From: Cyclina sinensis
Lineage: Eukaryota; Mollusca; Bivalvia; Venerida; Veneridae
NCBI GenBank assembly: GCA_012932295.1
Contig: JAAONU010000001.1
Location: 682,001-746,000 of the forward strand
Length of the DNA stretch: 64,000 nt
Direction: 5' to 3'
Shown here: in pieces, positions 19,257 to 63,828 of the stretch
Layout of the letters: the number at the start of each line of letters is the position of its first letter
Numbering within the stretch: the first letter of the stretch is position 1
Notes under the pieces: generated by a model
Databases searched by the model: none
Told to the model about the DNA's origin: nothing
The model's input: only the letters and a program-made list of their open reading frames with translations
Made by a program: the position numbers and the translations under genes

Positions 19257-19260
19257 CTGA

Positions 19261-30618: not shown

Positions 30619-30682
30619 ATGGCTCATTCGAAAGCAATTCGAAGTACACTACTGTTCTGGATAGTTTGTTTAAATTTACCAG
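30619..30682 (+). CDS. receptor exon 1: signal peptide
   Basis: ATG opens a 21-codon exon, Met-Ala-His-Ser then a hydrophobic core LLFWIVCLNL. It ends LP plus one base before GTAAAT. The split codon makes Gly with exon 2 (LPG|LVTQD). The phase, donor and signal-like content all agree. Confidence 0.75.
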
Positions 30683-35993: not shown

Positions 35994-36030
<37 letters not shown>

Positions 36031-42000: not shown

Positions 42001-45000
42001 ATTCATAATTTAAGCAGCGGATCACAATATGAACTGTTTATACTTTCAACAAACATAATTGGAAGCTCTGATGATTCAGATAAAATAGTCTTTCGAACGA
42101 AAGGTAATGCTATTGTTTGGTGATATTTTGCAGATTCTTTTGAGATAAAATATTCAAAGGAACAAGTGTAACTCTAACAGAAAGTTAAGTACTTCAGTCT
42201 GTAGTGTTTTAACTGCACTATAAGCGAATGTTTTTTACACAAATGTTTCTATTTATCATAATTATTGATTAAATGTCGTTAGTGACTTCCCTATTATCTT
42301 TGTCTTATTTCACTTCCTGATTATGTTAGAAAAAAAATATAAATAATCATTCAGAGCATTTGTATTGTATTCCAAAAAACCAAAACAATGTTTATATATT
42401 TTGTAGACGTTACACCAGAGAATGAGGAGATGAAACTGTCTACTGAGATATTGCTTATTTCTGTTCCAACTACTGTCGGTGTTTTAGCAGCTGTAATTAT
42501 CTTAATCTTTGTAATATTTCGACGAAAGAGGCGAACGAACAAAAGGTATGTTTTTAATATGCCACTTGTATTTGATCCAGGGTGGCCGTACCATGTGGTA
42601 AATGATGTCATTTAAGCTGCCGCAAGCAGCATTTTTTTGCCTCGATTCGGAGGAGAACAATGCTCTAAGTACTTTATTTCTTCATCAATTTCAATGGCAT
42701 ACAGCGCACGCGAAGCTGAAAATTGTGTCGTACACATTGGCCCTGATAAATTTCTTGTCAGATGTACAGAATTTTCTAACATTCGGGAAAACTCATGCGC
42801 TTTTCGCCATAGCAAATATATCTTTACGAACTCTTTATTTCCCGAATGTCAAGAAAAACTGTACATCTGACAAAAGAATCGTTAATACCTTCATGAAGGG
42901 CACAATTTTCCGCTTTGCATGCAATATGTCCCCATTCAATTGATGTTGAAGTAAAATACTTATAGCAGTTTTCTCCTCTGACTCGACGCAAAAATACTGC
43001 TTGCGACAGGCTTAATGACATCATTTACCACGTGGTATGGCCACTCTGTTATTGTAGTTATTATTCGTTTCAAAGCTATTATATATGTTAATCAGGAGCA
43101 ATGTCATTAACAAATATGTATAAACTATAAACTCCATTTCTTTCCAAACGATAATTGTCTAAATAAATTAAAATTTACCTTTTCTTGTTATGCAATCTAG
43201 AATATGAATGTTAATCAATATTCGTCCAAAGCTAGAAATCATTTGAAGTGTTATTGAACCTTGTATTGCGTGACTATCGTTCATGAGCTCACTTAATTAC
43301 GTTCAATTTCTGACCTATTGATACAGAATCTTGTCATTTTACGTCGTTTTTGTTTGATATGTTTCTATTTCTAGAACTTAACAAAATAACAGCTATTCGT
43401 TTATCCTTTTTTCTCGTTTTAAAGTGTTTATATTATTTTTCTGGCAATATTAATAACTGTAACATAAATATGATACAAATTACACATGTAATAATGAGGA
43501 ATTCCTTTAGTCCTAAAGGTACTGGAGTTGGTTTTCTACCTATGGCAATTTCATTTTTTAAATCTAAAAAAGAAATTTGTAAATGGTCCCTTGACTATCT
43601 TGTTTAAGAAACGTCAATTCTTTATATACCATTGATGCTCCAATCCTATTATGGTTTTATTACTCTGCAAATGTACAATAACACTTCCAAAATTGCATCA
43701 TTTCGGCGACATAATAAAATTTAATTATAAGGTTTAAAATATGAAACAACTAAATACGAATAATCAAGAAACATTGTATTTTCTTTCTACAGAAACGACA
43801 TTCAAATAACCGAAAATCTGAAAGACAAAGAGATAAGCCGTGGATCGTATGTCTCAATATCCGAAGTCATTGGTAACAAATTTACTTTTAAGAAATTTTA
43901 TACAGTTATCTGTCCAACAAAACATAAATGATATTTAAGATATATCTGTCATTGAACTGGTCTGTACGTTACATATGCATTTGTTATTGATTGATTGATT
44001 TGTACATAGTTCTTCTGAATTTTATAAATATACGGGGTTATAATTAAATAAATAACTGCATGAAAATAAATCAAATTAGATTTTGGAGGAGAAATCAAAA
44101 GCAACAAAGCGGCATAATAGTTTTTTTTCTAGCGTAAAAATCATCTTATTTTAGCAGTGAAAAGCTTGAATGATGCATACGAAGACGTGAAACTTGACAA
44201 AGGTATTTTTTCGAACGATTCTCAATGTTAACATACGACATGTACAATATGTCCAATAATGACTAATTTCAAAGTTGTCATAAAGAACCTTATCATTTTT
44301 CTGTTTGTGGATTGTTGCTAGTGTTTACGTTCAGCACTGTTTCTCAATTGGGTTTTTACTTTTAATTTGCCAACTTTCTTGGGGAAATGTTTTAAGAATT
44401 TTTGGTTTAAAGAGATTTTGTCATCTTTCATAAGAAAGCTTAAACGTTGTTGGAATCCTTTTCTAAAAACCACAACTTATTTAACATATATGCAAAATAT
44501 TTAATTTGATATCTAGCTTTCTTTGTTCAAGAGAGCAGTTTAATTTCCATAAGCATCGACATAAATCGAGATTTGATATATTTTGCAGAAATGAAATTAG
44601 ATGTCCAGAATCCAACATATGAAAGTCTCGTTCGAAACAGTAAGTACACGACGGTCTCATTTAAGTCTTTGAAACAAAATAACCATTTTTTTGTTTGCTT
44701 TGCTTTTCGTTTCGTAGAAGTAAACAGTCGCCAGAGCTCAGCATTTACAAAATAAGCAATAAATATTCAGTAATGTTTTTCTTAAATCAAAGAAACTATA
44801 AATGTATTTTTATTTTAAGGCATATGAAAAAAGCACAGTATACTTCTACTTCTTAACAAATAATTCAAATCTTCATATTGTTTAATCTACAAATGCGTTT
44901 TAGCGAACCTGAGCGCAGGGTGCTTAGCGATAATTTTTGTAACGGTCTTTGTCCATCGTGTTTCATCCATCCTCAGCATTAGTTCAGCCTACAAAAAATG

Positions 45001-48000
45001 CTCAGAATGTTTGCCCTTTCGGTAAGTTTAGAACATTTTTTTTGTTTACGGAATCTAGGTCATCCATGTGAATATCCTAGAAGCCATAATATTTCCTAAA
45101 TGTGAGAAAAAATATTGATTGCATGGTAGAATTCAAAACTGGGTCACATTGGGTTTACTAGGTAACAATGTAGATCAGTGGTAAACATGATGGATGTTTT
45201 TACTCAATCTTCATGAAACTTGCTCCGTATATTTTCCCTCTGAGACCTGTTCAAAACAAAGTGATGTATGTACAAATACTAAATTTCCAACCAAGATGAA
45301 AACCAGTACCGTATGAACACTTTTGTTCCCTGTTGTCATGAATCTTGTTCATAATGTTTGATTTTTAGATCCTTTGGATTAGCACGAAGATAAATGATAA
45401 GGTCACTAGTATAAATAAAAGAATTTTTTTATCACATTACAGTTAACAGTTTTGTCCCAGTATTCATTTGAATTGTTCTTTCATTCCAATGACGTAACAA
45501 ACACATTAGAATCTGAATGATTTTGAATCAAAATTAAAGACACCAGCCACAATATAAGGAAAAATTGTAAACGCTGTAGAAAATATTTTGACGCAATGTC
45601 CAACTAGTTTTGAAACTTGTTCGAGGTGTTTATCTAGATAAACTCTCAGTAAGGTTGAATGTGGGTCACAATGTATCATAGCCTGCATCACCAGATAAGA
45701 TCAGTGGAAAAACCTCATAACCGGCACATTTTAGGTTTGTTCTCTCTCTGTTTCTGTACATTATATTTAAGTACATTATTGACATTTACAGAGGCTGATC
45801 ATCAACACAAATCTAAACAAAGGTGGTACAGGAAGTTGCAAGAACAAGGTAATTTCAGATTTATGCACTTATCATTTAATCGTTATTTTTTATAGAAAGG
45901 GGTGTTCCCGATATCTCTGGAATCTAAATTTGTATCTACATTGTAACATCCATTTTAAAAGGGTTATAAATATATGAAGTAATATGGGATATATAAATGT
46001 GCTATTTAAATCGTTAAGCTTTGTAAATTCCTACACCAATTTTTTACATGTTTACTTGAATGCAAATACTTTGTACGTAAAGAGACTGTAAAGAACGAAC
46101 ACCGAGAATATTACGTGATATGAGCTTTGTTGACCCTATTCTTGTACACAACGGGCAAATAAAAAAATAGTTTATGTAAATCATAAACACAAAAAAATAA
46201 AGTATTCAAATTTTATTTGCAGACCGCCATCAGTTGACAAAACTCTACAAATTAATTTAATGTATACGTTGTATTCTATATCCAAGTTAATCTGCAATAC
46301 AAACCGGAATTATAATAATTCAGTAAAATGCTGTATTAATTTTTAGATTACCGTGTAACTTTTGTTATGCTCTTTTGTTCCTCTGTCGTCCGGTGTCTGT
46401 CGTCCACAATTTACCTCAAACGATATCTCCGCCTATACCACTAGGGTAATTGCAATATATGTTCAAAGAAATAATTCTTGTATTGTTTCCTTTTAAAATT
46501 GTACGGAAAATGGAATTCGACGCAGAACTCTGGTTATGATGGCAACTGAAATAAAACAACTTTAAAAAACCGCAAAACCTTGAGCTTAGATATTTGGTTT
46601 GTAGTATCATCCACTAGTGCTTTTCCAAAATCATATGAATCATTGCCCGAGGATCCGAGGGGTCACTGCATTTTGAAATGACTTATTTACAGAAAACTTT
46701 CAAAATTTCTTATCTGAAACCAAGGCCTAGAGCTTAGATATCTGGTGTGTTGTTCATCTAGTTGACCTTTACCAAAATCATATAAATCATGGCTTTGGGG
46801 TCAAATCTGGTCCAGCCTGAGGGGTCACTTCATTTTACATGGACTTTTATAGGAAAAGCTTTCAAAATCTTCACATCTAAAGCAATAATGCCAGTTGCAA
46901 TAAAAATTCACACCAATGATCTTTGGTTGGTCGCCTTTCAAAATTGTATATAAAAATCGAATTTCTTGGAGAACCGTGGTTGCCACTCTGGTCCGGAAAT
47001 TGAAAGGAAAGCTTCCCTCTCATAAACTTCTGGCCTATTTTAAATGTTTGGGCACAAATGTTCCTTGTGTAACCGTCTATATAAATCTGGAAATTTATTT
47101 CAATCCCTTAAAAACGTGGCCGTCGGACTTATTTTGCTTTATATGTCTATATGGCATCTTTAAAATCTTCTTCTTAGATACTGCAAGTCTAATTTGAAAA
47201 TAATTTGCACAAATGTTTCTTAGGTGGCCGTATGTATAAATTGTGAATATTTAAAAACATGGCTGCAAGTTGCGGGGCTTAATTTCTTTATATGTTTATA
47301 CTGGAAAGTTTATAGATCTTCTTTTTAGAAACTGCAGGTCTAATTTGAAAATGATTTGGCACGAATATTCATTGGGGACCCTCTATGTAAATTGTGAAAT
47401 TCATTTATCTGTGAGGAAAAAAACATTGCAACCCGCGGCGGGGATTATTAATCCCCTTCCACCGTAAAGCGGGGAGAGGATTATAGGAATGGCCTCCGTC
47501 TGTCAGTCCGTACGTCAGTCAGTCCGTCTGTCTGTCCGTCCGTAACACTTACGTGTCCGCTCCATAACTTTTAAACTGCCTAAAATGTTTTGAAATAACT
47601 TTGCACAAATGATCACCATTATGAGACAATGTGCAGAGCGCAATAATTGGGATGCTACCCCCAAGGTCAAGGTCACACTTAAAGGCCAAGTGTTAAAAAG
47701 TCTCTATTTCGTGTCCGCTCTATAACTTTTAAACTGCTGAAATTTTTTTGAAATAATTTGGCACAAGTGATCACCATTATGAGACGATGTGCAGAGCACA
47801 ATAATTGGGTTGCTACCCCCAAGGTCAAAGTCACAGTTAAAGGTCAAGTGTTAAAAGTCTACATTTCGTGTCCGCTCCATAACTTTTAAACCGCTGAAAA
47901 TATTTTGAAATTACTTGGCTCAAGTGACCACCATTATGAGACGATGTGCAGAGCGCAATAATTGGGTTGCTATCCACAAGGTCAAGGTCACAGTTAAAGG

Positions 48001-51000
48001 TCAAATATCCATATTTCACGTCTGCTCTATAACTTAAAACTTGGCCTACGAAAAGTTTTTTAATTACATCGCACAAATGATCACCACTATGACACGATGT
48101 GCAGAACCCAACATCCAGGTTGCTACCCCCAAGGTCAAGGTTAAATGTTCTCCATAACTTGTTGACTTTATTGAAGATTTGAAATAACTTGGCACAAATA
48201 ATTACTATCATGAGACAATGTGCTTATAATATGCATGGCACAACATCAAGGTCATGGTTGGTTAAAGGTCAAGAAGTACACATTCATGTCCGCTGCGGAA
48301 GGGGATTTAGCTGTCCTTCAGACTGCCTTGTTTTCCTTTATGTTTATTGAGGAAAATCTTCCCTATAGAAACTGCTGGGCCAAGTTAAAATTGAATTGGC
48401 TCAAATGCTTTATTATATATATTGAAAGGGTGTCTGTCAGTTTGTGTCGTAGGTGTTAAAACCCTTGTACTTCCACATTTCTACGACTATCGTTTGAAAG
48501 GTAGTGTACATGTTCATAATAAGTGTAGATGTTTGTGATGTGTCTTTCATGCCACAAATGCCCGCTCTGAGTCAATGCTCCCTCAGGGCAAAACTTTTTT
48601 TCATTCATATTTCGTTTTTCATCTGACACATGCTTCTAGCTACTCTGGGTAACCCCTCCCCATATCCCCGCATTATTTGATAGTCCCTTTTAGATTAGCG
48701 ACTAAAAACCGTTTGTTTCACTTGTTCACGTTGTTTAGCAACTTAATTTTAATGTTTTTTACCATTGCTCACCTCATAAATGTTTTCCTTTTGTTTATTT
48801 GTAAGCGCCATTTTTCGGAAATGTTACATTTTTAAAGTGTATCTGTGGCTGTATCTCGGTATTCAGTATTCATAAACCTCACAACGTTATGAGAAACCAT
48901 AGAAATAAGACACACTGGGCTGACTTAGAAATGATAGGGTACAGACATAAACTGTCACATATATTACAGACATGAAATATGTATATAAAGAAATGTTTTA
49001 AGCCAAATCCAAAATATTGATAAACATATCTGCCAAAACTGCCGAAATCTTGATTAACACAACTGCCCTTGTGTTTCTGCGCATAGACAAGCTGGTTTAA
49101 CAAAGCCGAAAGACAAAATGAACAAAGAATTTTGAATTTTACTTTGTTGATGGGAAAAAAATTAGATGAAACAAATTATAGAATATTTAAACATTAAAAC
49201 CGACGCCTCGTTGCAATGCATATCGTATTTTATTTTTCGTGCGTATTTGAGTGTGGGACTGAAACAAAGAACAAGTAAGAACGTGTAATCATGAAAGATA
49301 TACATGTATTGCAAATAAATGCTTCGAAAGTCACTTTTCCCGTTTCATTAAATAAGATATTAAGCCTGTCGTATCATGTATGGGTTTCAGTAGTTTGAAG
49401 TTTATTTTTTTCAGTACTGGATTCTTCGTCGAAAAAGAAAAACAAAACGACCGAGAACGAAAGCGGTAAGACTGTTTAACAAAACGATGTATAACCTAAC
49501 TGAAGTAAATAGTAGAATACATCTGTGCACTACTGTAATACTTTCTGAACTCAGGATTAATACTTACCTAAGATTTTATCCGTCGTAAAAGATCATTAAA
49601 ACATGTGTTTACAATATAACATTAAAGTCAAGTACTTTGAGTACTTACTTGAGTCTTAAATATCCGATACGGGGTTATAATAGAAATAAGTATTTTGGAG
49701 GAAAATAAAAAGTCAAAAAAGGCATTTGAGCAGTCTTTTTTCAGATTTCTAAGTCTTCATATTCTAGCAGTGAAAGATTTTTTATTCATACGAAGACGTC
49801 AAAATTCACAGATGTTTTGTCTTGAGCGGGTCTTGATGTTTATATACTGTTTTTTTTTTATATATATTGTCCAGTAAATGACTTAAAGTTACGAAAAACT
49901 GTCACAAAAAAGTTTTAATTACACGGGTTACTATTTTTCTGTTTTGTGGATTGTAACACCTTGTTAACTTTTGTCACAGTTTCTGCTTGGAATGTATTGA
50001 ATTCATATTTGTCATTTGTCAACTTTTAGTATGAATACAAATGTATTAACCATTAATTTTGGGGGGAAAAGTTGTTTTCCATCTCCATTAAGACAGCTTA
50101 AACAGAACAGAATTCACTGAAGTTTTAAAACGGTTATGTATGTAACATACATGCATTTTTAATATTTAAACAATGCAAAGTTGTAATGAATATTCTGCTT
50201 TTACATTTTTATGTATTGATACACATACATTGTCTTCTGTGTTAATTCTCCTCAGCATCGACACAAATAGACCTTTGATATTTTACAGAAAAGCAATCAG
50301 ATGGCCAGAATCCGACTTACTTAGGTCTCGTTCTACGGAAAAGTAAGTATAAGGTCTCGTTCTACGGAAAAGTAAGTATAAGGTCTTCTTCAACGGAAAA
50401 GTAAGTATAAGGTCTAGTGCTACGGAAAAGTAAGTATAAGGTCTAGTTCTACAGATAAGTAAGTATAAGGTCTAGTTCTACGGAAAAGTAAGTATAAGGT
50501 CTAGTTCTACAGATAAGTAAGTATAAGGTCTAGTTCTACGGAAAAGTAAGTATAAGGTATAGTTCTATGGAAAAGTAAGTATAAGGTCTAGTTCTATGGA
50601 AAAGTAAGTATAAGACGATCATATAAAAGTCTATAAAATGAATCGAAAATAATCATCTATTTTCTTGCATGACTATTCTGCTATTTTGCATTTTGTTTTG
50701 TAGAAATAAACCGTAATTCCTTTTTATTAATGTTATCTTGAAGTATAAAACTTTAGCCGCCCGATTTTACCTACTGGTATTTTTGTATATAACTTCGTAA
50801 AGTACGCATTCCTTGTAGGTCAAATGATTGTTCCGGAAACAACAAATCAAGGATATGAAGGTAATCATTTTAAATATAATTTGATTTGAATACTCGTGCT
50901 TTAAGGAGCTTCTAATGTTACTTTCAAAACACCAAGGACATTTATATGTATGTGAAAATATAACACTACAGTACATAGCCACCTACACTATAATTCGGAA

Positions 51001-54000: not shown

Positions 54001-57000
54001 ATAAAAATCATTCGACGTCTAAATGTGAACAATTAACCAAAAAAATGTGTTTGTGTTATGATTTTGACATAGCTTTTAGATCTTCTTCTTACCCTATTAT
54101 TTGTTCTTTGATCATTGTTGTTTTGTTTTCAAAAAAATTCTAGAATGAATAAGCAAAAAGAAAAAAGATATGCATTTATAATGAAAAAAATCATAGATCT
54201 AGTCAAAGATTTCTTACACGTACCTCAAGCGAAATATATCACAGACAAATAAGCAACACATCATTTTAAAGAGAACGTTTTAATGGAAAAAATGGAATTA
54301 GCTAATCAAGTCTTGAAAAAAAAACTGCATGGAATAAAAATGAGCGTGTTCAAAATCTTTTTGGATCAGTTACTTGAAAAATATCTCTAGATATTTTCAC
54401 TGATGTATCTTTTAATTCTATAACCCTAATTAAACTAGCCTCTATATAAATTTTACTCCTTGGCTTCGTAATTCCATCAAAATTTCAAATGATTTATTTA
54501 AACAATCTTTAATGTATAGTCATGATTTTAGTTTAACTTGTTCAATTTTGTTTTTTACTTTTTTTCGGTCTACATTTTCACTTTCCATAATCATTTTTAA
54601 GTTTTTGTTAACAATCCAGGCAGCTGTGTCAAGTGGCAAGGGATAAATGTGCGTCACTTCCGGTTTCGCGTGTGACAGGTGCCCGCGACCAAGTGCGTAA
54701 AATATGGATTTTTATTTACTTTAAAAACATCTTTAAGATGAAAATTACCTGAAGAAATTTGTAAAACTGTCATAGTTACATATATTTTTTTCGCTCATAT
54801 GAAAACTTCGAGGTCAAAAATTGGTGTCGCATGACCTTTAAAGGTATTTTTCAGCACCAGTTTCTTCGTTGAAAAAGAAAAACAATTCCTACTCTGAGAA
54901 GCAAAGCGGTGAGTTTTTTTAAAACAAAACTGTATTGAGATGAACAATTAGACTAAGGTAATATAGAAATAAATCTGTGAACTACTGTAATACTTTTTAA
55001 ACTATAGAGAAAATATTAACTTTAAATAATATTTGCGGAAAATAATCATTGACCTTGTTTTAATAATATTTTGTCAGTGTTGTTTTTGTCTTTTTTTCAT
55101 GCAGTTGTACAGAATTTGACGGGTTAAATGAATTTGATATTTGGTTGCAACTAACTGAGATGTTTTTGGGGAAAACTAAAAAAAATCAGGAGACATAAAT
55201 AAATACAATTATTAGATTTGTTTCTTGTAAATAAGAGTGTCTTTTTTAATGTTACCTAAAAAAAGCTTGAATGTTGCATACAGAACATGAATATTAACTG
55301 AGAAATTTTATCGGCGATTCTCAATGTTTAGTTATTGTTTAATATATAATCCATTTGTTGAATGATTTTAAAGTTGGAAAAAATCTCGCACAGGAGCTTT
55401 ACTTACTCGGGTTACCAATTTTTTATTTTGTGGACTGTTATTACGTGTTTACGTTCGGCACTGTTTCTGCTTGACCTGTATTTGTCAACTTTCAGAATAA
55501 AAAAACTTAGCACTTTGGCGGAAAAAGGTTTTGAGTAATTTTGTTAACATATGTTAACATATCTAATACGTTATGGAATTCCTTATAATATGAAAGCGGT
55601 TATTCGACATACGTGCAAATTATTTATATTAAACATGTAGTAATGTAAACTCCGCTAAAACTTAGGTATATATATATATTGTTATCCCTCAGCATCGACA
55701 CATACCAGTCTTTGATATATTAAAGAAACGAAATTTGATAAACAGAATCGAACATATAAAATACTCGTTCTACGAAAGGTTCTCATTGAAGTCTCTTATA
55801 TAAATTTAAAATTATACTTCTTTTTCCTAGCATGATTAAAATGAATTTTGCTTTTTGTTCAGCAGAAGTAAACAGTAATTATTTCTTAATAGATATCAAT
55901 TTGGAATACATATTTAGAATATTTTAGCCCCCGATTTTCTCTTCTGGTATTGTTGTACATGACTTAGTAAAATTTGCATTACCTTGTAGATCAAATGGTT
56001 GTAACAAAGTCAGCAAATCAAGTATATGACGGTAAGTTTAGATATTTTCCAGGCTAGATGTCTTGAATACATGTAAGTATAGGAAGCATAAGCGCCTAGT
56101 GTAACTGCAAAACATATAAAGGAATTTATATTTAAATGTTCTACATAGGCACCTCAGCTAAAATGTGCAACGTTATGTAATATATATCCATTGTTTTTTT
56201 CAAATTAAAATATCATGTAATGGTTTTGAAGGTGTGGTATACTGCTGTTTTTATAAATGGTTTCTTCTTATTATTGTTGTATAAAACACATGTATTAGGC
56301 ACACCTGAGCGCAGGTTGCTTAGCATGAGCTTGTGACGATCTATATCAGTCTTCCATCGTGTGACTTAGGTCGTCATTGTTTGTCTTACTTTCACAACAC
56401 TTGCTCAGACTATTTGCCCTCCACGAGAAGGTCGTCATTTGAGTTGAAAATTCTAGGTCGTTAGCCTTGAGAACATATTTTGAGGCCATATCTTTGCTTG
56501 TCAGAAATATTACTTAAAATGTTTGTCTTGATATCGCTGAAGGGTTTGAAAATGGGTCACATTTCATTAATTAAGTATCATTCTAGATATGTGAAACACA
56601 TCATGGACACTCGAAAGTTACGTTCTTGACTCAATCTTCATGAAGCCTGCTCAGAATGTTTCACTTTTAGGACGTTATGTTGGTTCAAATGTGATATTAA
56701 ATAGTTTACAAGGGTCAAAGGTGACCACTCTAGAGGTCATGGTGTTGGCCCATTATTTATGTATATTTGTTTCTAATATGTTATAAACACTATTAACTGA
56801 ATTTACTTTTCGCCAAAAAAAAAAAAACAAAGTTATCAGCCAGAATATAAGGAGAAATCTTGAATTCTGTTGAAAACACATTATTAAAACAATTTTCTAT
56901 TTGTTTTGAATTTCACCTAAAGTGTTTTTCACGATATTATTTCAAATAAGTTTTAATCTGTTTCACAACTGATCAGAATCTAGGTCACTAGTTCAAAACT

Positions 57001-60000
57001 TTTAAAAAGTATAGACGTACCTCCTTAATTTTCATAAAACTTTGTCATTATTTGCCGTGATGTCTTATAAAAGTGTTAGATACCTTAATTTGTTACCTCG
57101 AATATCATTTTTTCCCTCTGAATGAATGTGGCATTATCTTTTTTCGACAATGTTATCGTATTAATTCACTGTTAATCCGTTGACATGTTTCAGAAACAAT
57201 GACTGTTATCTCTTATTTTTCAACAAAGCTGTTAATAAATTATATATGTTTCAGTACCAGTGTCTAAATTGAGTGAGAAACGCAGTCTAAATTCAGATAT
57301 ACACAGCAGTAAGTTTTTTGTTGTTTTTGTTTTTGCACAGTCTTTATATTTGGTAAGAACGGGTTATTTGACAATCTCCTGGTTGAGCGTCATGTTATGC
57401 CATGTAAGAGGTATGTCAACATCACCAGCTCAGATCAGTTAAAACATTATGATCACTTTAGTTGTCATATTTTAGCTATTTCATATAAAAAGGTGAAAAC
57501 GCATATCACAGCAAAAACAACCGTCAGAAAACACAATCTCCCTGCACAGTCAAAAAGTAGAGAAGAAAAGACAGCATGAATTTATATAAAAATCAATAAA
57601 AAAGACACCAACGAAAATGAGAACCCGAGGGGTTACCACTTTGTAACGGTCAGTATCAAAACACTTGCCGAGGGGGTCAAAATTAGGTAAAATCATTGAT
57701 AACACTAAAGGTCTAATATTTGTCCTAATTGTCGCTTAACTTGGTTAGACTATTGTTTGTTTGTCTGTTGTTTTTGTTTGTTTTTTTTTTATAAAATATA
57801 TCGGAAAACTTCATTATCTCGCTAAAATCTACTATTTCTATAAAGACATTAACTGCACATTAACAGTCCTTTAAGTTCTAAATATGAAGACAACGAAAAG
57901 AAGTCTAAAATTTCATATTTGTGTGATTAGGGTCACAAACATTTTGTGGTCCTTTCGCAAACAATGAAAATTTGATGTCTAATGAAAACTTTGAATAGAC
58001 TTATAGTGCCTGTATTTTTCAACTGAACTGTCATTCCTTTCTGTTACATAGAACTTATTTAATTAAACAGTTTAAATTCTGTGTAAGTTTTGTTTACATG
58101 AACACATAAGTTCGAATTCTTTTGTTGGTAATGAGATTGTAAAGAAAGATAATGACGGATATGAAGGTAATTTCAGCTTTGTTAATCAAAACATATATTT
58201 ATTTTGCTTAACGGACAAATGATATTTATGGTTTATACATAATGTAGAATATATACTTAGCTTGAAGACCGACTCCGTCACGATGTATGAAAAACCTTTA
58301 CAAATAATGAATACATTATTTCTAAAATCCAAGGAATCTGTAAGACATGTCGGATTTTTATAAAAACTAGTTACTTGTGTTTATTTTGAGTGCTTGAGCG
58401 ATTTTTTTTGTTTTATTTACTCATTTGATTTTATTTTAAATTTAACCATTGACTTCACATTTAATTACACTCAACAGAACATCGGTAGCTGTATATCAGT
58501 AATTAGTATTTAAAATCTTAGATATTTTAAGCATAAAACATAGATATGAGACACAAAGGACTGGTACAGAAATAAGAGAGTACAAATACTGCTTTTGACC
58601 AGTTGTACAATTTATCATAACGAAACCCGAAATGTTGAATGTGAATGTTTCATAGTGTGGGGCTAAAACAAAGAATGTTTGAAAGGGATAGCAATAGTGA
58701 AAATAAATGCTTCAAAAGTCATGTCTTACCTTTGAATAAATGAGGCATATAACAAGGTTAATCAGTCTTATCACAAATGAGTTTCAGTAGTTAAAAATAT
58801 TTTTCAGCACCAGTTTCTTCGTTGAAAAAGAAAAACAATTCCTACTCTGAGGATCAAAGCGATGAGTTTTTTTAACAAATCTGTATTGCGAGAAACAATT
58901 AGACTAAGGTTAATAAAGTGATAAATCTGTGAACTACGGTAATAACTTATTAACTATAGAGAAAATATAAACTTTAAATAATATTTGCGGAAATGATCTT
59001 TGACCTTGTTTTAACAATATTGTGTCAGTGTTGTTTTTGTCTTTATTTTTTCATGCAGTTGTACACAATTTGACAGGTTAAATGAATTTGATATTTGGTT
59101 GCAACTAAATGAGATGTTTTGGGGAAAAACTCAAAAGGAATAAGGAGACATAAATAAATACAGTTATGAGATTTGTTTCTTGTAAATAAGATGTTTTTTT
59201 AATTTTACCTGAGAAAAGCTTGAATGATGCATACAGAACGTGAATATTAATAGAGAAATTTTATCGACGATTCTCAATGTTTAGATATTGTTTTATATAT
59301 AATCCAGTTCTTAGTGTTCTTAAAGTTGGAACAAAATCTTGCACAGGGGCTTTACTTACTCGGGCTACCATTTTTTTGTGGATTGTTATTACGTGTTTAC
59401 GTTCGGCACTGTTTCTGCTTGACCTGTATTGAATTCTAAATTGTCAACTTTCAGAATAAAAAAAAAAGCACTTTGGCGAAAAAGGTTTTGAGTAGTTTTT
59501 GAAGATATCTAAAACGTTATGGAATTCCTTATAATTTGAAAGCGGTTACTTATTCGAAATATATGCAAACTATTTTTATGAAACATGTCGTAATAAAAAC
59601 TATTTTACAGAAACGAAATTAGATAAACAGAATCGGACATATAAAGGACTCGTTCTACAAAAAAGTAAGCACAGCAGGCTCTCATTGAAGTCTGTTAGAT
59701 AAATTACAAATTATAAATTATTTTATTTGCATGATTTAAATGAATTTTGCCTTTCGTTCAGCAGAAGTTAAACAGTAATTATTTCTTAATGGATATTTAT
59801 TTGGAATACATATTTAGATTTTTTTAGCCGTCCGATTTTTTCTTCTGGTATTGTTGTACATGACTTAGTAAAATTTGCATTACCTTGTAGATCAAATGGT
59901 TGTAACGAAGTCAGCAAATCAAGTATATGACGGTAAGTTTAGATATTTTCCAGGCTAGGTGTCTGGAATACATGTACGTACGGGAAGCATAAGCACCTAG

Positions 60001-63000
60001 TGTAGCTGCAAAACATACAAAGGAATCTATATTAACATGTTCTACATAGGCACCTCAGCTAAAATGTGCAACGTTATGTAAAATATATCCATTGTTTTCT
60101 TCAAATGAAAATATCATTTACTAGTTTATGAAGGTGCGTTTACTGCTGTTTTTATAAATGTTTTCTTCTTATTATTGTTGTATAAACAGATGTGTTAGGC
60201 ACACCTGAGCGCAGGTTGCTTAGCATGAGCTTGTGACGATCTATATCGGTCATCCATCGTGTGACTTAGGTCGTCAATATTTTCACAACACTTGCTCAGA
60301 CTATTTGCCCTCTACGAGAAGTTCTTCATGTGAGTTGAAAAAGCTAGGTCATTAGCCTTGGGAACATTTTGAGGCCATATCTTTGCTTGTCATAAATATT
60401 ACTTGAAATATTTGTCTTGATATCGCTGAAGGGTTTGAAAATGGGTCAAATTTCGTTGATTAGGTAACATTCTAGATATGTGAAACACATCATGAACACT
60501 CGAAAGTTACGTCCTTGACTCAATCTTCATGAAATCTGCTCAGAATGTTTCGCTTTTGGGACGTCATGTTGGTTCAAATGTGATATTAAATAGTTTACCA
60601 GGAACAAAGGTGACCACTCTAAAGGTCATAGTTTTGGCCCTTTATTTATGTATATGTGGTTCTAATGATGTTACAAACACTATTAACCGAATTTACTTTT
60701 CACCAAAAAAAAGTTATCAGCCAGAATATAAGAAGAAATGTTGAATTCTGTTGAAAACACATTATTAAAGCAATTTTCAATTTGTTTGGAATTTCACCTA
60801 AAGTGTTTGTCACGATATTATTTCAAATAAGTTTTAATCTGTTTCATAACTGAATAGAATCTAGGTCACTAGCTCAAAACTTTTTAAAAGTATAGAGGTA
60901 CCTCATTAATTTTCATAAAACTTTGTCATTATTTGCTGAGATGATCTCATAAAAAGTTTTTGATATCTTGATTTGTTACCTCGAATATAATTTCTTTCCT
61001 CGAAATGAATTTGGCATTATCTTTTTTCGACAATGTTAATATTAATTCACTGTTAATTCGTTGACATGTTTCAAAAACTATGACTGTAATCTCTTATTTT
61101 TTAACAAAGCTGTTAATCAAATTATATATGACTGTTTCAGTACCAGTGTCTAAACTGAGTGAGAAACGCAATCCAAATTCAGATATACATAGCAGTAAGC
61201 TTTTGTTTTGTTTTTGTTGTTGCGCAATCTTTACATTTGGTAAGAACGGGTTATTTGACAATCTCCTGGTTGAGGGTCATGTTATGTCATGTTAGAAGTA
61301 TATCAACATCACCAGCTCAGATAAGTTGAAAAAATTATGATCATTTTAGGTGTCATATTTTAGCTATTTCATATAAAAAAGTGAAAACGCATATTACCTC
61401 GAATATAATTTCTTTCCTCGAAATGAATTTGGCATTATCTTTTTTCGACAATGTTATCGTATTAATTCATTGTTAATTCGTTGACATGTTTCAGAAACTA
61501 TGACTGTAATCTCTATTTTTCAACAAAGCTGTTAATCAAATTATATATGTTTCAGATTTTTGTAGCCGTCCGATTTTCTCTACTGGTATTGTTGTACATT
61601 AGTTAGTAAAAATTGCATTACCTTGTAGATCAAATGGTTGTAACGAAGTCAGCAAATCAAGTATATGATGGTAAGTTTAGATATTTTCCAGGCTAGATGT
61701 CTTGAATACATGTACGTATAGGAAGCATAAGCACCTAGTACAAAACGTACAAAGAATTTATATTAACATGTTCTACGTACGCACCTCAGATAAGATGTGC
61801 AACGTTATGTAATATATATCCATTGTTTTCTTCAAATAAAAATATCATTTACTGGTTATGAAGGTGCGTATACTGCTGTTTCTATAAATGTTTTTCTTCT
61901 TATTATTGTTGTATAAAACAGATGTATTAGGCACACCTGGGCTTGTGACGATCTATATCGGTCTTCCATCGTGTGACTTAGGTCGTCAATGTTTGTCTAA
62001 CTTTCACAACACTTGCTCAGACTATTTGCCCTCTATGAGAAATTCGTCATGTGAGTTGAAAAAAGCTAGGTCGTTAGCCTTGGGAACATTTTGAGGCCAT
62101 ATCTTTGCTTGTCAGAAATATTACTTCTAATGTCTGAAGTGTTTGAAAATGGGTCACATTTCGTTAATTAGTTAACAATCTAGATATGTGAAACACACCA
62201 TGAACACTCGAAAGTTACGTTCTTGACTCAATCTTCATGAAACCTGCTCAGAATATTTCGCTTTTGGGACGTTATGTTGGTTCAGATGTGATATTAAATA
62301 GTTTACCCACTCTTAAGGTCATAGTATTGGCCCATTATTCATGTATATTTGTTTCTAATGATTTTACAAACACTATTAACCGAATTTACTTTTCGCCAAA
62401 AAACAAAGTTATCAGCCAGAATATAAGGAGAAAGCTTGAATTCTATTGAAAACACATTATTAAAGCAATTTTCTATTTGTTTGGAATTTCACCTTAAGTG
62501 TTTGTCACGATATTATTTTAAATAAATTTGAATCTGGTTAACAACTTATCAAAATCCAGGTCACTAGCTCAAAACTTTTAAAAAGTATAGAGGTACCACC
62601 TTAATTTTAATAACACTTTGTCATTATTTGCCTTGATGATCTTATAAAAGCTTTTGATATCTTAATTCGTGACCTCGAATATCATTTCTTTCCTCGAAAT
62701 GAATTTGGCATTATCTTTTTTCGACAATGTTATTGTATTAATTCACTGTTAATTCGTTGACATGTTTCAGAAACTATGACTGTAATCTCTTATTTTTCAA
62801 CAAAGCTGTTAATCAATTATATATGTTTCAGTACCAATGTCTAAATTGAGTGAGAAACGCAATCCAAATTCAGATATACATAGCAGTAAGTTTATTGATA
62901 TTAATTAAAGTAAACAGAGTAACACAAGCTTTATATACAAAATTGTTTGTTGTGGAAAATTGTTATCTATCATTCAGGGAAAATGGTACTTGTCATGTCC

Positions 63001-63828
63001 CGAAGAAAGGCATGTAATTTTTTAACTGTCCGTCTGTCAGTCCATCTGTCTGTACTGTCGACCGTCTGTCTTTCCATTCGAAAACATTAGCATTGCTCAT
63101 TACTTCCTTAATAATAAATTGGTTTACTCCATATTTTACCACAACACTCCTTTGGCCAAGACCTTCCCACCGACATTTGTATTACATTGACCCTGAATGA
63201 CCTTGACCTCAAAGGTGCAATTGTCAAAAACTGTAACATTGCCCATTACTTCTTTATACGTAAAAATTAATGCATTTACTTTATACGTTAACACAACACC
63301 CTTTGGACTAGACTTTTCTTATGATATATATTTTCTATGACTTTACCCCTCCTTCACCTTTACCTAAAAGGTCAAATGGTCAAATATTTTAGCATTGGCC
63401 ATAACTAACTTATTAGTTTATTGAATTACATAAACACAATACCAGTTTGGACAAGATCTTTCCACTGACATATATTAATTGACCTTCACCTCGCAGGTCT
63501 AGTTGTCGAAAATACTTTATTTTGGCCATTTATATAGCGTTTATGTTTGCACAAAACGATCCTTAGAGAAATCTTCCTAATGCATATATGTTTTTTTACC
63601 TTGATCCCTACTTGACATTGACCTTGAGATCAAATTGTCATGAAAATCTTCTTTCGAATGATCTACAATTTATCTTCATCATGCCTATGTGATGTTTTTG
63701 TTTTTTGTTGTTATTTTTTCAAATCCAAGTATCTTGACCGGCACATTTGGGGTTTTTTTTCTTTACAGTTTATATTTTCAGTGGCTGATGTTCAACACAT
63801 CACTTATAATACTAATCATGCAGGATGA
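30619..63828 (+). CDS. Ig-superfamily type I receptor with modular tyrosine tail, whole-gene model
   Basis: This is a joined model of 30 exons (listed separately below), 4401 coding bases and about 1466 residues. It has a signal peptide (1-21), nine Ig domains (about 22-937), two FN3 domains (938-1133), a transmembrane helix (about 1148-1171), a basic stop-transfer RRKRR, and a tail of about 295 residues. Ectodomain exons are all one domain each with phase 1 at both ends. The only asymmetric pair is the membrane exon (ends phase 2) and the first tail exon (2 to 1). Many Asn-X-Ser/Thr sites and a string of tyrosines fit a glycosylated surface adhesion or recognition receptor that signals through phosphotyrosine. 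Mollusc genomes hold many such proteins, often named CD22-like, nephrin-like or hemicentin-like. I recognise no exact orthologue. Ligand and signalling are inferred. Tail exon use is unproven and probably varies by splicing. Confidence 0.8.
30807..30940 (+). mobile_element. 5'-truncated SINE copy inside intron 1
   Basis: The 3' part of the same SINE as at 28410, in opposite orientation (GTCAGTCACTTGCGGAG ... CTGGCGTTAAACCCC and an A-rich tail). A perfect 13 bp target-site duplication GCGTCTTATATTG flanks it at 30794-30806 and 30942-30954, which proves insertion by retrotransposition. Confidence 0.9.
31278..31625 (+). CDS. receptor exon 2: Ig domain 1
   Basis: The acceptor is CCATCAG and the donor GTAGGT, phase 1-1. 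The first Ig cysteine is in ITLTCWYNG, with Trp in HSFWTRH and the second canonical Cys in DKWTCSQH. An extra pair (SSCSASG, SWECPGN) may form an added disulfide. It has several N-glycosylation sequons. Confidence 0.88.
31616..31890. repeat. 52 bp minisatellite spanning the exon 2 donor
   Basis: Five full copies of a 52-mer start at 31616, 31668, 31720, 31772 and 31824, plus a partial copy at 31876. The first copy overlaps the last ten coding bases and the splice donor, so every unit carries TTTGTAA-A/C-AGGTAGGT, a potential 5' splice site. Confidence 0.95.
32211..32552 (+). CDS. receptor exon 3: Ig domain 2
   Basis: The acceptor is TGTTTTCAG and the donor GTAAGT, phase 1-1. Ig core: ITITCLTS, TVSWFLSS and NLHCTASN. 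Rich in Asn-X-Ser/Thr sequons (NLT, NTT, NGS, NST, NRS). Confidence 0.88.
32865..33152 (+). CDS. receptor exon 4: Ig domain 3
   Basis: The acceptor is TATTACAG and the donor GTAAGT, phase 1-1. It begins with the YPPDGPP linker seen at the start of most later Ig exons. Core: HLSCFVTGG, LTWVCY, QSCECWLEH. Confidence 0.87.
34414..34857. mobile_element. MITE with about 29 bp inverted ends, intron 4
   Basis: The left end CTACCGCTTGCAAAACTGAT is mirrored at the right end (ATCAGTTTTGCAAGCGGTAG) with two mismatches further in. TA dinucleotides flank both ends (34412-34413 and 34858-34859). It is about 444 bp with no coding frame, and a TA-target DNA transposon derivative is likely. Confidence 0.82.
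35218..35511 (+). CDS. receptor exon 5: Ig domain 4
   Basis: The acceptor is CTATTTCAG and the donor GTAAGC, phase 1-1. YPPKTP linker, then LSISCYSES, YLWSKAG and YDGMLQCEAEN. Confidence 0.88.
35990..36043. repeat. (TA)n microsatellite next to the exon 6 acceptor
   Basis: An interrupted TA tract ends about 20 bases before the exon 6 splice acceptor, in the usual branch-point and pyrimidine-tract zone. Confidence 0.9.
36061..36351 (+). CDS. receptor exon 6: Ig domain 5
   Basis: The acceptor is TTCCGTTTAG and the donor GTGAGT, phase 1-1. YPPSVPVFGFED opens the exon. Core: FTIVCISKGNPDPTLSW and KETCVATN. The usual D-x-G before the second Cys is absent. Confidence 0.86.
36582..36887 (+). CDS. 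receptor exon 7: Ig domain 6
   Basis: The acceptor is TGCATTCAG and the donor GTAAGT, phase 1-1. HPPRKPVIQYFD, then FTIACNAVSRP, TYSWYGPS and RGRYSCNADN. Confidence 0.88.
37779..38057 (+). CDS. receptor exon 8: Ig domain 7
   Basis: The acceptor is CCTTTCAAG and the donor GTATGT, phase 1-1. YPPNIGQLKN, then LNVSCPVTPGNP, EIIWMRN and EDGMVYTCRAVN. Confidence 0.87.
38720..39010 (+). CDS. receptor exon 9: Ig domain 8
   Basis: The acceptor is CCCATTCAG and the donor GTAAGT, phase 1-1. LHFSCLTDSNP and DTGIYTCTGIN give the disulfide. The core Trp position reads TSVLFKG, so the usual tryptophan is replaced. Confidence 0.87.
39559..39867 (+). CDS. receptor exon 10: cysteine-less Ig-like domain 9
   Basis: The acceptor is TTTGTTTAG and the donor GTAATT, phase 1-1. 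It keeps the Ig pattern (ATFSFTAIAYPRP, FKWQRQ, ADFGKYRLVIEYS), but Phe and Arg occupy the two disulfide positions. It sits between the Ig string and the FN3 pair. Confidence 0.82.
40237..40527 (+). CDS. receptor exon 11: FN3 domain 1
   Basis: The acceptor is TACATTAAG and the donor GTATGG, phase 1-1. APPSQPTELKVEE, FVTIRWKPGSD, QSFILQYKS and WYQVLIYAQNQLG fit the fibronectin III strand pattern. The exon has no in-frame ATG near its start and is easily missed by an ORF search. Confidence 0.87.
40937..41400. repeat. about 155 bp tandem repeat, three copies, intron 11
   Basis: Units start near 40937, 41094 and 41246. Each holds GGTAGAGTTAT, 'atccacctatgaa' and GTTATGCTC-Y-GGAC. It ends in a GGAC/GACG-rich tract at 41375-41395 and resembles the repeats at 9.6 kb and 47.5 kb in style. 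Confidence 0.8.
41540..41610 (-). repeat. tRNA-like fragment, intron 11
   Basis: The minus strand reads TTGCCAGGCGGTTGGTGCC, then GGTTCGAATCCCACTGGGAAC. It has a perfect B-box and a T-arm-like end but no complete acceptor stem. A SINE head or tRNA pseudogene is more likely than a functional tRNA. Confidence 0.4.
41807..42103 (+). CDS. receptor exon 12: FN3 domain 2
   Basis: The acceptor is TCTTTTTAG and the donor GTAATG, phase 1-1. GKPLPPSEVEVIP, ATVQWKPGSDGG, QTFVLNYKN and SQYELFILSTNIIGSS. It is closely related to the preceding FN3 exon (shared WKPGSD and DWTN phrases), so the pair is a tandem duplication. Confidence 0.88.
42407..42545 (+). CDS. receptor exon 13: transmembrane segment
   Basis: The acceptor is ATTTTGTAG and the donor GTATGT. 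It enters in phase 1 and leaves in phase 2. A short acidic juxtamembrane stretch (DVTPENEEMKLSTE) is followed by a helix of about 24 hydrophobic residues (LLISVPTTVGVLAAVIILIF) and the basic RRKRRTNK, giving type I orientation. Confidence 0.88.
42578..43048. repeat. long inverted repeat (foldback element), intron 13
   Basis: CAGGGTGGCCGTACCATG at 42578 is mirrored at 43031-43048. The arms can be followed inward for about 200 bases each (ACATTCGGGAAA against TTTCCCGAATGT near the centre, about 42813). The whole 471 bp could form a near-continuous hairpin. It starts 33 bases after the transmembrane exon. Frames on both strands arise from the symmetry. Confidence 0.85.
43793..43872 (+). CDS. receptor exon 14: first tail exon, YVSI motif
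   Basis: The acceptor is CTTTCTACAG and the donor GTAACA. It enters in phase 2, matching exon 13 only, and leaves in phase 1. It encodes RNDIQITENLKDKEIS and then GSYVSISEVI. Tyr is followed by V-S-I, an SH2-type YxxI. The residue at Y-2 is Gly, so it is not a strict ITIM. Confidence 0.8.
44158..44202 (+). CDS. receptor exon 15 (module G): NDAYEDV
   Basis: 45 bases, phase 1-1, acceptor TTTTAGCAG and donor GTATTT. It encodes KSLNDAYEDVKLDK with an N-x-x-Y tyrosine. The acceptor is a NAGNAG tandem (TAGCAG), so one residue (Ala or nothing) may be added. Broken copies occur in each downstream block. Confidence 0.72.
44589..44639 (+). CDS. receptor exon 16 (module B1): NPTYESL
   Basis: 51 bases, phase 1-1, acceptor ATTTTGCAG and donor GTAAGT. 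It encodes MKLDVQNPTYESLVRN. NPTY is a canonical NPxY motif for PTB-domain binding, and Y-E-S-L also fits SH2-type YxxL. Confidence 0.78.
44718..44755 (+). CDS. possible alternative terminal exon H0 after module B1
   Basis: The acceptor CGTTTCGTAG leads in phase 1 to VNSRQSSAFTK and TAA, with AATAAA three bases later (44758-44763). The acceptor and the AAGTAAAC start are kept in the later blocks (near 50702, 55863 and 59763). Use as an exon is a guess; the intron from exon 16 would be only 78 bases. Confidence 0.25.
45792..45848 (+). CDS. receptor exon 17 (module F1): WYRKL
   Basis: 57 bases, phase 1-1, acceptor ATTTACAG and donor GTAATT. It encodes ADHQHKSKQRWYRKLQEQ, strongly basic with one Tyr (Y-R-K-L). 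It is homologous to the terminal exon at 63782 (ADVQH). If left unspliced it reads on to TAG at 45893-45895, with AATAAA at 46196-46201, so it could also end a short isoform. Confidence 0.6.
47461..48290. repeat. about 155 bp tandem repeat, four to five copies, intron 17
   Basis: After a CCGTC/TGTC-rich leader (47490-47545), units begin with TGTCCGCTCYATAAC. Each contains GATCACCATTATGAGAC, TGTGCAGAGC and CCCCAAGGTCAAGGTCAC. Copies decay towards the 3' side. No coding signal. Confidence 0.85.
49415..49465 (+). CDS. receptor exon 18 (module A1): tyrosine-less
   Basis: 51 bases, phase 1-1, acceptor TTTTTTCAG and donor GTAAGA. It encodes LDSSSKKKNKTTENES. It is homologous to module A2 (54855) but lacks its tyrosine, as TTEN replaces SYSEK. 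Confidence 0.6.
49755..49805 (+). pseudogene. decayed copy of module G, block 1
   Basis: It keeps TAGCAGTGAAA and ATACGAAGACGT from exon 15, but the frame is broken by base changes and the donor is gone. A relic exon. Confidence 0.5.
50289..50342 (+). CDS. receptor exon 19 (module B2): NPTYLGL
   Basis: 54 bases, phase 1-1, acceptor ATTTTACAG and donor GTAAGT. It encodes KQSDGQNPTYLGLVLRK, a duplicate of exon 16 with the NPTY motif kept. Confidence 0.75.
50324..50613. repeat. 29 bp minisatellite spanning the exon 19 donor
   Basis: Ten copies of a 29-mer (GGTCTMGTTCTACGGAAAAG then TAAGTATAA). The first copy covers the last 19 coding bases and the splice donor. Each unit therefore repeats the exon end and an AAA-GTAAGT donor. 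29 is not a multiple of three, and reading through meets a stop within three units. Confidence 0.95.
50819..50860 (+). CDS. receptor exon 20 (module C1): NQGYE
   Basis: 42 bases, phase 1-1, acceptor CCTTGTAG and donor GTAATC. It encodes QMIVPETTNQGYE. The tyrosine is one codon before the junction, so Y+2 and Y+3 come from the next exon. Confidence 0.72.
51640..51680 (+). pseudogene. site of a lost module D, block 1
   Basis: Intron sequence that follows module D in other blocks (TTTGGTAAGAACGGGTTATT) is present from about 51710. The exon itself and its donor are eroded to CATACTAAAAG. Confidence 0.4.
52493..52531 (+). CDS. receptor exon 21 (module E1): NDGYE
   Basis: 39 bases, phase 1-1, acceptor CTTTTATAG and donor GTAATT. 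It encodes EEIVKKDNDGYE. As in module C, the tyrosine sits one codon before the splice. Confidence 0.7.
52944..54837. mobile_element. 1.9 kb non-autonomous DNA transposon with TTAA duplication
   Basis: The ends are perfectly inverted (TTAAAGGTCATG ... CATGACCTTTAA), with TTAA at 52940-52943 and 54838-54841. The matching place in the next block (58786-58806) is an empty site, GTAGTTAAAAATATTTTTCAG, so the boundaries are supported by comparison. No transposase is recognised. A TTAA target suggests a piggyBac-type element, but because the inverted ends include TTAA, a TA or TAA target cannot be excluded. Confidence 0.85.
54855..54908 (+). CDS. receptor exon 22 (module A2): NNSYSEK
   Basis: 54 bases, phase 1-1, acceptor ATTTTTCAG and donor GTGAGT. 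It encodes PVSSLKKKNNSYSEKQS, a lysine-rich stretch ahead of an N-x-x-Y tyrosine. Confidence 0.72.
55260..55305 (+). pseudogene. decayed copy of module G, block 2
   Basis: AAGCTTGAATGTTGCATAC matches exon 15, but the TAGCAG acceptor is lost, the bases after TAC are shifted and no donor remains. Confidence 0.55.
55726..55780 (+). pseudogene. decayed module B3 (NRTYKIL)
   Basis: It matches the B exon at 59611. The acceptor is weakened to ATATTAAAG with no pyrimidine tract, and the donor is altered by a deletion (CGAAAGGTTCTC). The reading frame is still intact, so weak use is possible. Confidence 0.5.
55990..56031 (+). CDS. receptor exon 23 (module C2): NQVYD
   Basis: 42 bases, phase 1-1, acceptor CCTTGTAG and donor GTAAGT. 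It encodes QMVVTKSANQVYD. Joined to module D the junction reads YDVP. Confidence 0.75.
57255..57308 (+). CDS. receptor exon 24 (module D1)
   Basis: 54 bases, phase 1-1, acceptor TGTTTCAG and donor GTAAGT. It encodes PVSKLSEKRSLNSDIHS. It has no tyrosine but provides V-P after module C's YD. Its first residues resemble module A (PVS-x-L). Confidence 0.72.
58129..58167 (+). pseudogene. module E2 with destroyed acceptor
   Basis: The coding part (NEIVKKDNDGYE) and donor GTAATT match E1, but the acceptor CTTTTATAG|GT has become CTTTTGTTG|GT. Without the AG it should not be spliced in. Confidence 0.7.
58808..58861 (+). pseudogene. module A3 with destroyed donor
   Basis: The acceptor and frame are intact (PVSSLKKKNNSYSEDQS), but the donor GTGAGT has become ATGAGT. 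Read through, it ends after SDEFF at TAA (58872-58874), so it is either skipped or serves as a short terminal exon. Confidence 0.65.
59210..59256 (+). pseudogene. decayed copy of module G, block 3
   Basis: GAAAAGCTTGAATGATGCATAC matches exon 15 almost exactly up to the Tyr codon. After that the sequence is shifted (AGAACGTG) and the donor is lost. The acceptor is CTGAG instead of TAGCAG. Confidence 0.55.
59611..59664 (+). CDS. receptor exon 25 (module B4): NRTYKGL
   Basis: 54 bases, phase 1-1, acceptor ATTTTACAG and donor GTAAGC. It encodes TKLDKQNRTYKGLVLQK. The proline of NPTY is arginine here, while N-x-x-Y and the following G-L are kept. Confidence 0.72.
59891..59932 (+). CDS. receptor exon 26 (module C3): NQVYD
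   Basis: 42 bases, phase 1-1, acceptor CCTTGTAG and donor GTAAGT. The protein is identical to C2; the single base change (ACA to ACG) is synonymous. Confidence 0.75.
61141..61194 (+). CDS. receptor exon 27 (module D2)
   Basis: 54 bases, phase 1-1, acceptor TGTTTCAG and donor GTAAGC. It encodes PVSKLSEKRNPNSDIHS. It differs from D1 by S-L to N-P. Confidence 0.72.
61629..61670 (+). CDS. receptor exon 28 (module C4): NQVYD
   Basis: 42 bases, phase 1-1, acceptor CCTTGTAG and donor GTAAGT. The protein is identical to C2 and C3. It arose by a recombination that joined a D-upstream region to a C-upstream region at about 61556. Confidence 0.74.
62832..62885 (+). CDS. receptor exon 29 (module D3)
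   Basis: 54 bases, phase 1-1, acceptor TGTTTCAG and donor GTAAGT. It encodes PMSKLSEKRNPNSDIHS, one residue different from D2. Confidence 0.72.
62886..63781. other. intron 29 with bivalve-style dispersed repeat
   Basis: It holds a CCGTCTGTC-rich leader (63030-63080) and repeated 'ttgacctt.acct' phrases (63180-63640), the same general style as the 47.5 kb repeat. No exon seen. Confidence 0.5.
63782..63828 (+). CDS. receptor exon 30 (module F2): probable terminal coding exon
   Basis: The acceptor TATTTTCAG leads in phase 1 to ADVQHITYNTNHAG and TGA at 63826-63828. It is homologous to exon 17 (ADHQH) including its upstream intron context (CCGGCACATTT). No canonical AATAAA appears in the remaining 170 bases, so the 3'UTR probably runs out of the window, or other exons follow. 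Confidence 0.5.

Follow-up and report, generated by a model that had tools for sequence, protein, structure and literature searches.

The window, a stretch of 64,000 nucleotides (C1:682001-746000 of the 903-Mb, 154-contig genome of Cyclina sinensis), contains a predicted single-pass Ig/FN3 receptor gene with a cytoplasmic tail of about 20 small, mostly tyrosine-bearing exons. Our preferred reading is that this tail grew by duplication and that splicing sets the number of its docking sites, and we give this reading about an even chance of being correct; the tail exons as such are very likely real, and the array is likely to be used. The first-pass annotation had proposed a transmembrane Ig/FN3 receptor with an expanded set of symmetric, mostly tyrosine-bearing micro-exons, which is borne out by an open gene model, by intact exon copies and by the tail of a paralogue (F). 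The duplicated array, the compact paralogue suggesting its origin, the phosphatase-tailed sister genes and the junction-split motifs are new here; optional tail exons with SH2-binding or ITAM-type motifs (shrimp Dscam) and the micro-exon style (schistosomes) are already known, as far as the consulted parts of the sources go.

The full predicted receptor comprises 1516 amino acids encoded by 33 exons, with a single stop at its end and 15 tail tyrosines (Table 1). Its upstream part (30619-42545), consisting of a signal exon, nine Ig-sized exons of 279-348 nt (31278..39867, plus strand), two FN3 exons and a transmembrane (TM) exon, forms a phase-consistent open model. All junctions from exon 1 to exon 12 are in phase 1, exons 2-12 being 1-1 throughout, in agreement with the phase-1 rule previously claimed for the Ig/FN3 part, and the TM exon is left in phase 2. 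Pfam searches with the whole receptor protein, rather than with single exons, yielded matches to Ig_3 (3.4e-45) and I-set (2.5e-25), and the DSCAM C-terminal FN3 model was also matched (51 bits, cut-off 39), which was taken as FN3 likeness only. A minisatellite with a 52 bp unit (31615-31883) overlaps the end of a receptor exon, so that the 5' splice site is repeated about five times.

Table 1. Features of the receptor gene, its duplicated blocks and paralogue F (window coordinates unless marked C1 or C14).
Feature	Position	Strand	Phase	Peptide or remark
Exon 1	30619..30682	+	0-1	Start codon; signal-peptide-like MAHSKAIRSTLLFWIVCLNLP (signal by eye); donor GTAAAT
Exons 2-5, Ig-sized	31278-31625, 32211-32552, 32865-33152, 35218-35511	+	1-1	
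Exons 6-10, Ig-sized	36061-36351, 36582-36887, 37779-38057, 38720-39010, 39559-39867	+	1-1	
Exons 11 and 12, FN3	40237-40527, 41807-42103	+	1-1	Pfam fn3 1.1e-15, two stretches
Exon 13, TM	42407..42545	+	1-2	
t1, juxtamembrane	43793..43872	+	2-1	80 nt; GSYVSI
t2	44155..44202	+	1-1	VKSLNDAYEDVKLDK; 48 nt; tandem acceptor TAGCAG
t3 (type N)	44589..44639	+	1-1	EMKLDVQNPTYESLVRN; NPxY and YxxL; duplicated at 50289 and 59611
t4	45792..45848	+	1-1	ADHQHKSKQRWYRKLQEQ; 57 nt
Possible early terminal exon or decayed terminal copy	46223..46260	+		DRHQLTKLYKLI, then stop; acceptor 3.8; read by hand
K_A	49415..49465	+	1-1	VLDSSSKKKNKTTENES; no Tyr
N_A	50289..50342	+	1-1	EKQSDGQNPTYLGLVLRK; donor repeated in 29-bp minisatellite
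Q_A	50819..50860	+	1-1	GQMIVPETTNQGYE; Tyr one residue from 3' end
E_A	52493..52531	+	1-1	GEEIVKKDNDGYE; Tyr one residue from 3' end
K_B	54855..54908	+	1-1	APVSSLKKKNNSYSEKQS
N_B, degenerate	55726..55778	+		Sole donor found there scores -2.9
Q_B	55990..56031	+	1-1	QMVVTKSANQVYD
V_B	57255..57308	+	1-1	VPVSKLSEKRSLNSDIHS; no Tyr; Q_B and V_B join to YDVP
E_B, degenerate	58128..58166	+		Acceptor without AG
K_C, degenerate	58808..58861	+		Donor GT changed to AT
N_C	59611..59664	+	1-1	ETKLDKQNRTYKGLVLQK
Q_C	59891..59932	+	1-1	QMVVTKSANQVYD
V_C	61141..61194	+	1-1	VPVSKLSEKRNPNSDIHS
Q_D	61629..61670	+	1-1	QMVVTKSANQVYD
V_D	62832..62885	+	1-1	VPMSKLSEKRNPNSDIHS
Terminal exon of the first-pass annotation	63782..63828	+		Resembles t4 but frame-shifted and with a stop; decayed copy or alternative end
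Tail exon of known type, beyond window	64036-64074	+		EEIVKTENQGYE
Tail exon of known type, beyond window	64310-64363	+		PVSNSKKKDNSKSVNQK
t4x, relative of t4, beyond window	65927-65983	+		SDVKQGTDKKCYERLQEK; 57 nt, local match score with t4 28; weak donor (-1.0)
Terminal exon, beyond window	67188-67231 (C1:749188-749231)	+		Ends DTNPKIEYTNMKK, then stop; acceptor 5.2
Duplicated blocks	55716-57509 / 59601-61397			89%
Duplicated blocks	59806-61202 / 61543-62893			88%
Duplicated blocks	54838-55651 / 58791-59601			86%
Duplicated blocks	52091-52608 / 57696-58249			83%
Paralogue F, ectodomain and TM	C14:202643-214148		TM exon 1-2	Ig, Ig, Ig-like, one FN3, TM
Paralogue F, tail			83-nt exon 2-1; 45-nt and 57-nt exons phase 1	EVLKTKSTIYEELK, SGIQEKTEMAYETLRHKR (45 and 57 nt); terminal NPVYMNLNYEAPGVI, then stop

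Behind the TM exon, a single 80-nt exon (phase 2-1) is followed by 15 intact exons of 39-57 nt, and the introns of the array measure 226-3566 nt. As claimed earlier, the internal small exons are symmetric (phase 1-1 in all 15 intact ones in the window) and usually carry a single tyrosine: exactly one was found in 12 of the 16 internal tail exons of the window, and none in K_A, V_B, V_C and V_D. The claim of at least 17 symmetric exons up to position 63828 stands only in part, because 15 intact ones are present there, and the number rises to 18 when three exons beyond the window are counted. At least seven copies in this range, including 63782, are degenerate. By sequence, the tail exons sort into about seven types, and the candidate terminal exon at 46223 weakly resembles the final one (67188). 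A second minisatellite (50323-50614, 29 bp unit) overlaps the end of a receptor exon and repeats the 5' splice site about ten times.

The tail was formerly taken to end at 63828, which is an effect of the window edge. Its continuation was read in the 26 kb past the window, where four further exons follow, and the exon 63782-63828 proved to be a frame-shifted copy of 45792-45848; it aligns with t4 but contains indels and a stop, and the DNA past the window ruled it out as the terminal exon. The exon at 67188 has the best acceptor among many candidate stop-bearing stretches within 6 kb and was picked partly on its position and its tyrosine.

Exon-like stretches were far more frequent in the tail than in shuffled sequence. 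With candidates defined as 36-84 nt long, acceptor ≥0 and donor ≥2.4 (a cut-off chosen after the exons had been seen, scored with a generic splice-site matrix), the plus strand of the tail stretch contained 18 non-overlapping phase-1 candidates, compared with an average of 1.54 in 100 Markov-1 shuffles, none of which exceeded 6. At this cut-off the minus strand yielded no candidates and the other two phases 7 and 4, and two upstream stretches of 17 and 21 kb, which overlap each other, held 2-5 per strand. Seven other threshold pairs (60 shuffles) all agreed in direction, ranging from the loosest (25 on the plus strand; shuffle mean 8.1, maximum 15; 7 on the minus strand) to the strictest (5; shuffle mean 0.15, maximum 3; 0 on the minus strand). 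Fourteen of the 18 candidates are exons of the model, while t2 lies under the cut-off; since the copies are related by duplication, the 15 exons do not represent 15 independent observations. The remaining candidates (44977, 57341, 60270 and 61982) were regarded as chance and kept outside the model, the open frame 44977-45021 resembling, by eye, an intron repeat found elsewhere in the array.

Self-comparison indicated that the array has grown by nested segmental duplication, the largest blocks being 83-89% identical. Three short pieces of about 160 bp show 93-97% identity, and older pieces, including the t2-t3 region, about 67-81%. The degenerate copies, judged by eye from the sequence, number at least seven: N_B, E_B, K_C, 63782 and three t2-like copies near 49.77, 55.26 and 59.21 kb. 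A genome search with the block 54855-57308 as DNA query listed 8 matches, all of them in this array save for a 112-bp piece on C4. A 206-aa tail query found this gene and one other place at E 7.7 (12 matches, 22 candidates scored), which is a weak test, since several exon copies of the gene itself were absent from the result.

Among four recent intact Q and V pairs, picked after looking, 5 changes per 37 silent sites were counted versus 3 per 143 replacement sites (Fisher p 0.01), and two pairs with a splice-dead member showed 0 changes per 15.7 silent sites versus 4 per 71.3 replacement sites. When the seven pairs of types Q, V, E and N that allowed comparison were summed, pS was 0.20 and pN 0.09; three of the 11 pairs tried were left out owing to unequal length. 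The silent excess in the Q and V pairs provides moderate evidence that the peptides may be under constraint. In 12 of 14 block comparisons, which are not independent, identity was higher between exons than between introns; this was rejected as sole proof of constraint, given that the lowest single p was 0.047 and that comparisons with degenerate copies showed the same tendency. Over seven comparisons, three exon indels were observed versus 6.9 expected, two of them being one-codon length differences and the third lying in the degenerate N_B. Furthermore, the mean acceptor score of the 18 symmetric tail exons was lower than that of 12 ectodomain exons (1.78 vs. 3.55, generic matrix; Mann-Whitney p 0.012), as expected if the exons are skippable, and the tail donors were not weaker (mean 4.10 vs. 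2.95; p 0.12).

The position of the tyrosine is bimodal. In six of 20 tail exons (Q_A, E_A, Q_B, Q_C, Q_D and E_X) it lies one residue from the exon end, so that pY+2 and pY+3 are supplied by the next exon, and in the other nine tyrosine-bearing tail exons it lies 5-7 residues from the 3' end. Joining in genomic order yields YxxP at five of the six junction tyrosines (YEAP, YDVP three times and YEVP) and YEGE at one; as the three YDVP are duplicates, the YxxP junctions are not five independent cases. Other joins of these exons would yield YxDQ, YxET, YxGS or YxAD. The tail also contains YVSI, YESL, YRKL, YLGL, YKGL and YERL, with a spacing set by which exons join, where the ITIM/ITAM pattern is (I/V/L/S)xYxx(I/V/L) or paired YxxL. 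The NPxY, YxxL and YxxP motifs and the final YTNM are what we take to be docking classes for SH2 and PTB adaptors.

A four-Ig query of the window gene gave 71 exon matches in the genome (E up to 0.1), four of them being the gene itself, and its closest paralogues reached about 42-44% identity per exon. Paralogue F, at C14:209 kb and hence on another chromosome, is 28% identical to a shortened version of the window gene and needs about five exons from TM to stop. Both genes share a homologous second Ig exon (38%, E 2.5e-9), FN3 and a 1-2 TM exon followed by a 2-1 exon. Some splice sites of the F model are weak (the TM acceptor scores -1.4, that of the 57-nt exon -0.3), and its 83-nt exon is the better of two candidates. 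F combines a compact tail with matching exon phases, so the tail in the window was probably expanded from a short tyrosine-exon tail. Searching the genome with the F tail peptides, which is a weak test, gave 3 matches, each of them in F, and hence no additional copy, and no clear tyrosine tail was found in the stretches read of paralogues B, D and E; the TM exon of B was not found within 10 kb. Exon 2859-2939 of paralogues A and C, tried as F2-like, was assigned to the juxtamembrane 2-1 type on visual inspection.

A genome search with the second Ig exon of F gave 40 matches at E up to 1, F and the window gene included. For at least 10 of 13 C14 loci with FN3 matches, the same strand carries a PF00102 match no more than 30 kb downstream, the loci without one among the matches listed being those at 209 (F), 1498 and 42501 kb, and the concatenated exons of one C14 locus matched Y_phosphatase at 3.1e-18. 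PF00102 had no match in the 345-aa tail of the window gene at E up to 1 and none near C1:0.7 Mb among the matches listed (150 of 643 candidates scored). Receptor tyrosine phosphatase genes of this family are numerous on a single chromosome, C14. With its neighbour at C14:234 kb, F shares 83% identity in the second Ig exon; by position, this exon of the neighbour belongs to the phosphatase-tailed receptor G (C14:234477-257706). As neighbours, F, with its tyrosine-docking tail, and G look like a receptor pair with opposite signals.

Searched against a protein database, region 900-1320 of the predicted receptor matched 13 of 4574 candidates, of which the named ones are fish titin-like and L1-like proteins and the others unnamed. 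Tail residues 1126-1383 (a query without the later repeats) matched 0 of 1175 candidates, and a two-row alignment of F and the shortened window gene one weak unnamed match of 6982. No tail relative in another species was found with either tail query; because a match in these searches requires five-residue words in common, distant orthologues may be missed. A described mollusc receptor with such a tail was likewise not found in the open-licence PMC literature (titles and abstract starts).

We propose that a short ancestral tail of about five exons, as in F, would have grown by nested tandem duplication of multi-exon blocks. Ligand binding would lead a kinase to phosphorylate up to 15 tyrosines, on which SH2 and PTB adaptors would dock. 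As the tail exons are symmetric, any of them may be left out without harm to the frame, and splicing may in this way determine how many sites are present; in the Q and E types the following exon would also set pY+2 and pY+3 (YDVP, YEAP, YEGE, YDDQ, YDET and others). We infer that several exon combinations may be used by the cell, and combinatorial splicing of the tail is possible judging from the genomic sequence. It seems rather doubtful to us that splicing goes further and writes phosphotyrosine codes, with cassettes setting the site number and the next exon switching between YxxP, YxxQ, YxxE and YxxT at a Y-[DE]-junction. If combinatorial use is true, signal strength and type would be tuned by tail splicing and not by the ligand-binding part. 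The number of docking sites would then be evolving by visible block duplication, many sister loci having a tyrosine phosphatase domain instead.

The same array could encode a fixed long tail that always includes all intact exons, duplication having raised the number of tyrosine sites as in a multi-site scaffold and symmetry having made the copies tolerable. We consider this a tentative alternative, clearly short of an even chance. Symmetry is inherited, because the Ig/FN3 exons are 1-1 and phase-1 blocks were copied whole, and it is therefore no evidence for regulated skipping; the strength of the tail donors and the YxxP junctions obtained by collinear joining, mostly mutual copies, also fit a fixed tail. 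However, short exons with weak acceptors are often skipped, a general tendency with which the tail acceptor scores agree, and the splice-dead copies demonstrate that a change in the exon set need not disrupt the frame.

It is unlikely that the working receptor has a short tail ending after t4, possibly at 46223, or soon after, with the rest being mostly decaying duplication debris. The possible terminal exon at 46223 with its acceptor, the degenerate copies and the compact tail of F would all suit such an early end, but recent intact copies retain frame and peptide, and t4x and a terminal exon with a better acceptor lie beyond the array. A partial assembly artefact, in which the repeated blocks are unresolved haplotypes set in tandem, appears very improbable: recent blocks are indeed 87-89% identical over 1.4-1.8 kb, and the three short pieces even more so, yet length, order and state of decay vary among the blocks, the older pieces are far more diverged, and the window lies inside a 71-Mb contig.

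The C14 receptor tyrosine phosphatases share the Ig/FN3 ectodomain family with the window gene, and the TM exon phases of G and H are, by eye, the same; their cytoplasmic PTP domain, however, was not detected in the window-gene tail. YxxP scaffolds such as p130Cas contain many repeated YDVP-like docking sites and are not receptors, whereas the window gene has such sites in a predicted receptor and would make them at exon junctions; we know of no p130Cas-type repeats made across exon junctions. The oyster protein CgIgIT2 carries a tyrosine-based signalling motif and, as a mollusc Ig receptor, resembles the window gene in this respect. It has five Ig domains and a 'classic immunoreceptor' motif according to the consulted part of a review (PMC11999971), in which a micro-exon array like that of the window gene is not mentioned.

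Schistosome micro-exon genes, in the part of the source consulted, encode secreted proteins made of short exons (6-81 bp, for the most part multiples of three) that alternate with long introns, and splicing varies the protein (PMC10526429). In the window gene, a predicted transmembrane receptor, this style is confined to the cytoplasmic tail (18 exons of 39-57 nt) and absent from the ectodomain. In the Dscam of Penaeus monodon, again as far as the consulted part of the paper goes, transcripts show a variable tail: seven of its exons are optional, splicing also selects the stop exon, and the authors count at least 384 tail forms, some tail exons carrying SH2-binding and ITAM-type motifs (PMC6851185). 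The likeness lies in an Ig/FN3 receptor with many tail exons, some of them motif-bearing. However, the Dscam architecture (9 Ig, 4 FN3, Ig, 2 FN3) differs from the nine Ig-sized and two FN3 exons found here, and the tail exons of the window gene are tandem copies of a few types, known from genome sequence, whereas the Dscam variety is known from transcripts. By the features compared, the window gene is a member of neither group.

Several other features were observed in the region. Open frames resembling transposase fragments (mariner/Tc1-like by eye) lie at 24077-26586, and ankyrin-repeat-like open frames, also by eye, at 17761-19283 on the minus strand. A 26-bp tandem repeat occupies 22029-22310 (10.8 copies, 98% matches). 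Beyond the window, at about 80803-83500 in window coordinates, an Ig-like open frame is followed by a frame with KQYEELSNEQ, possibly representing a further small receptor.
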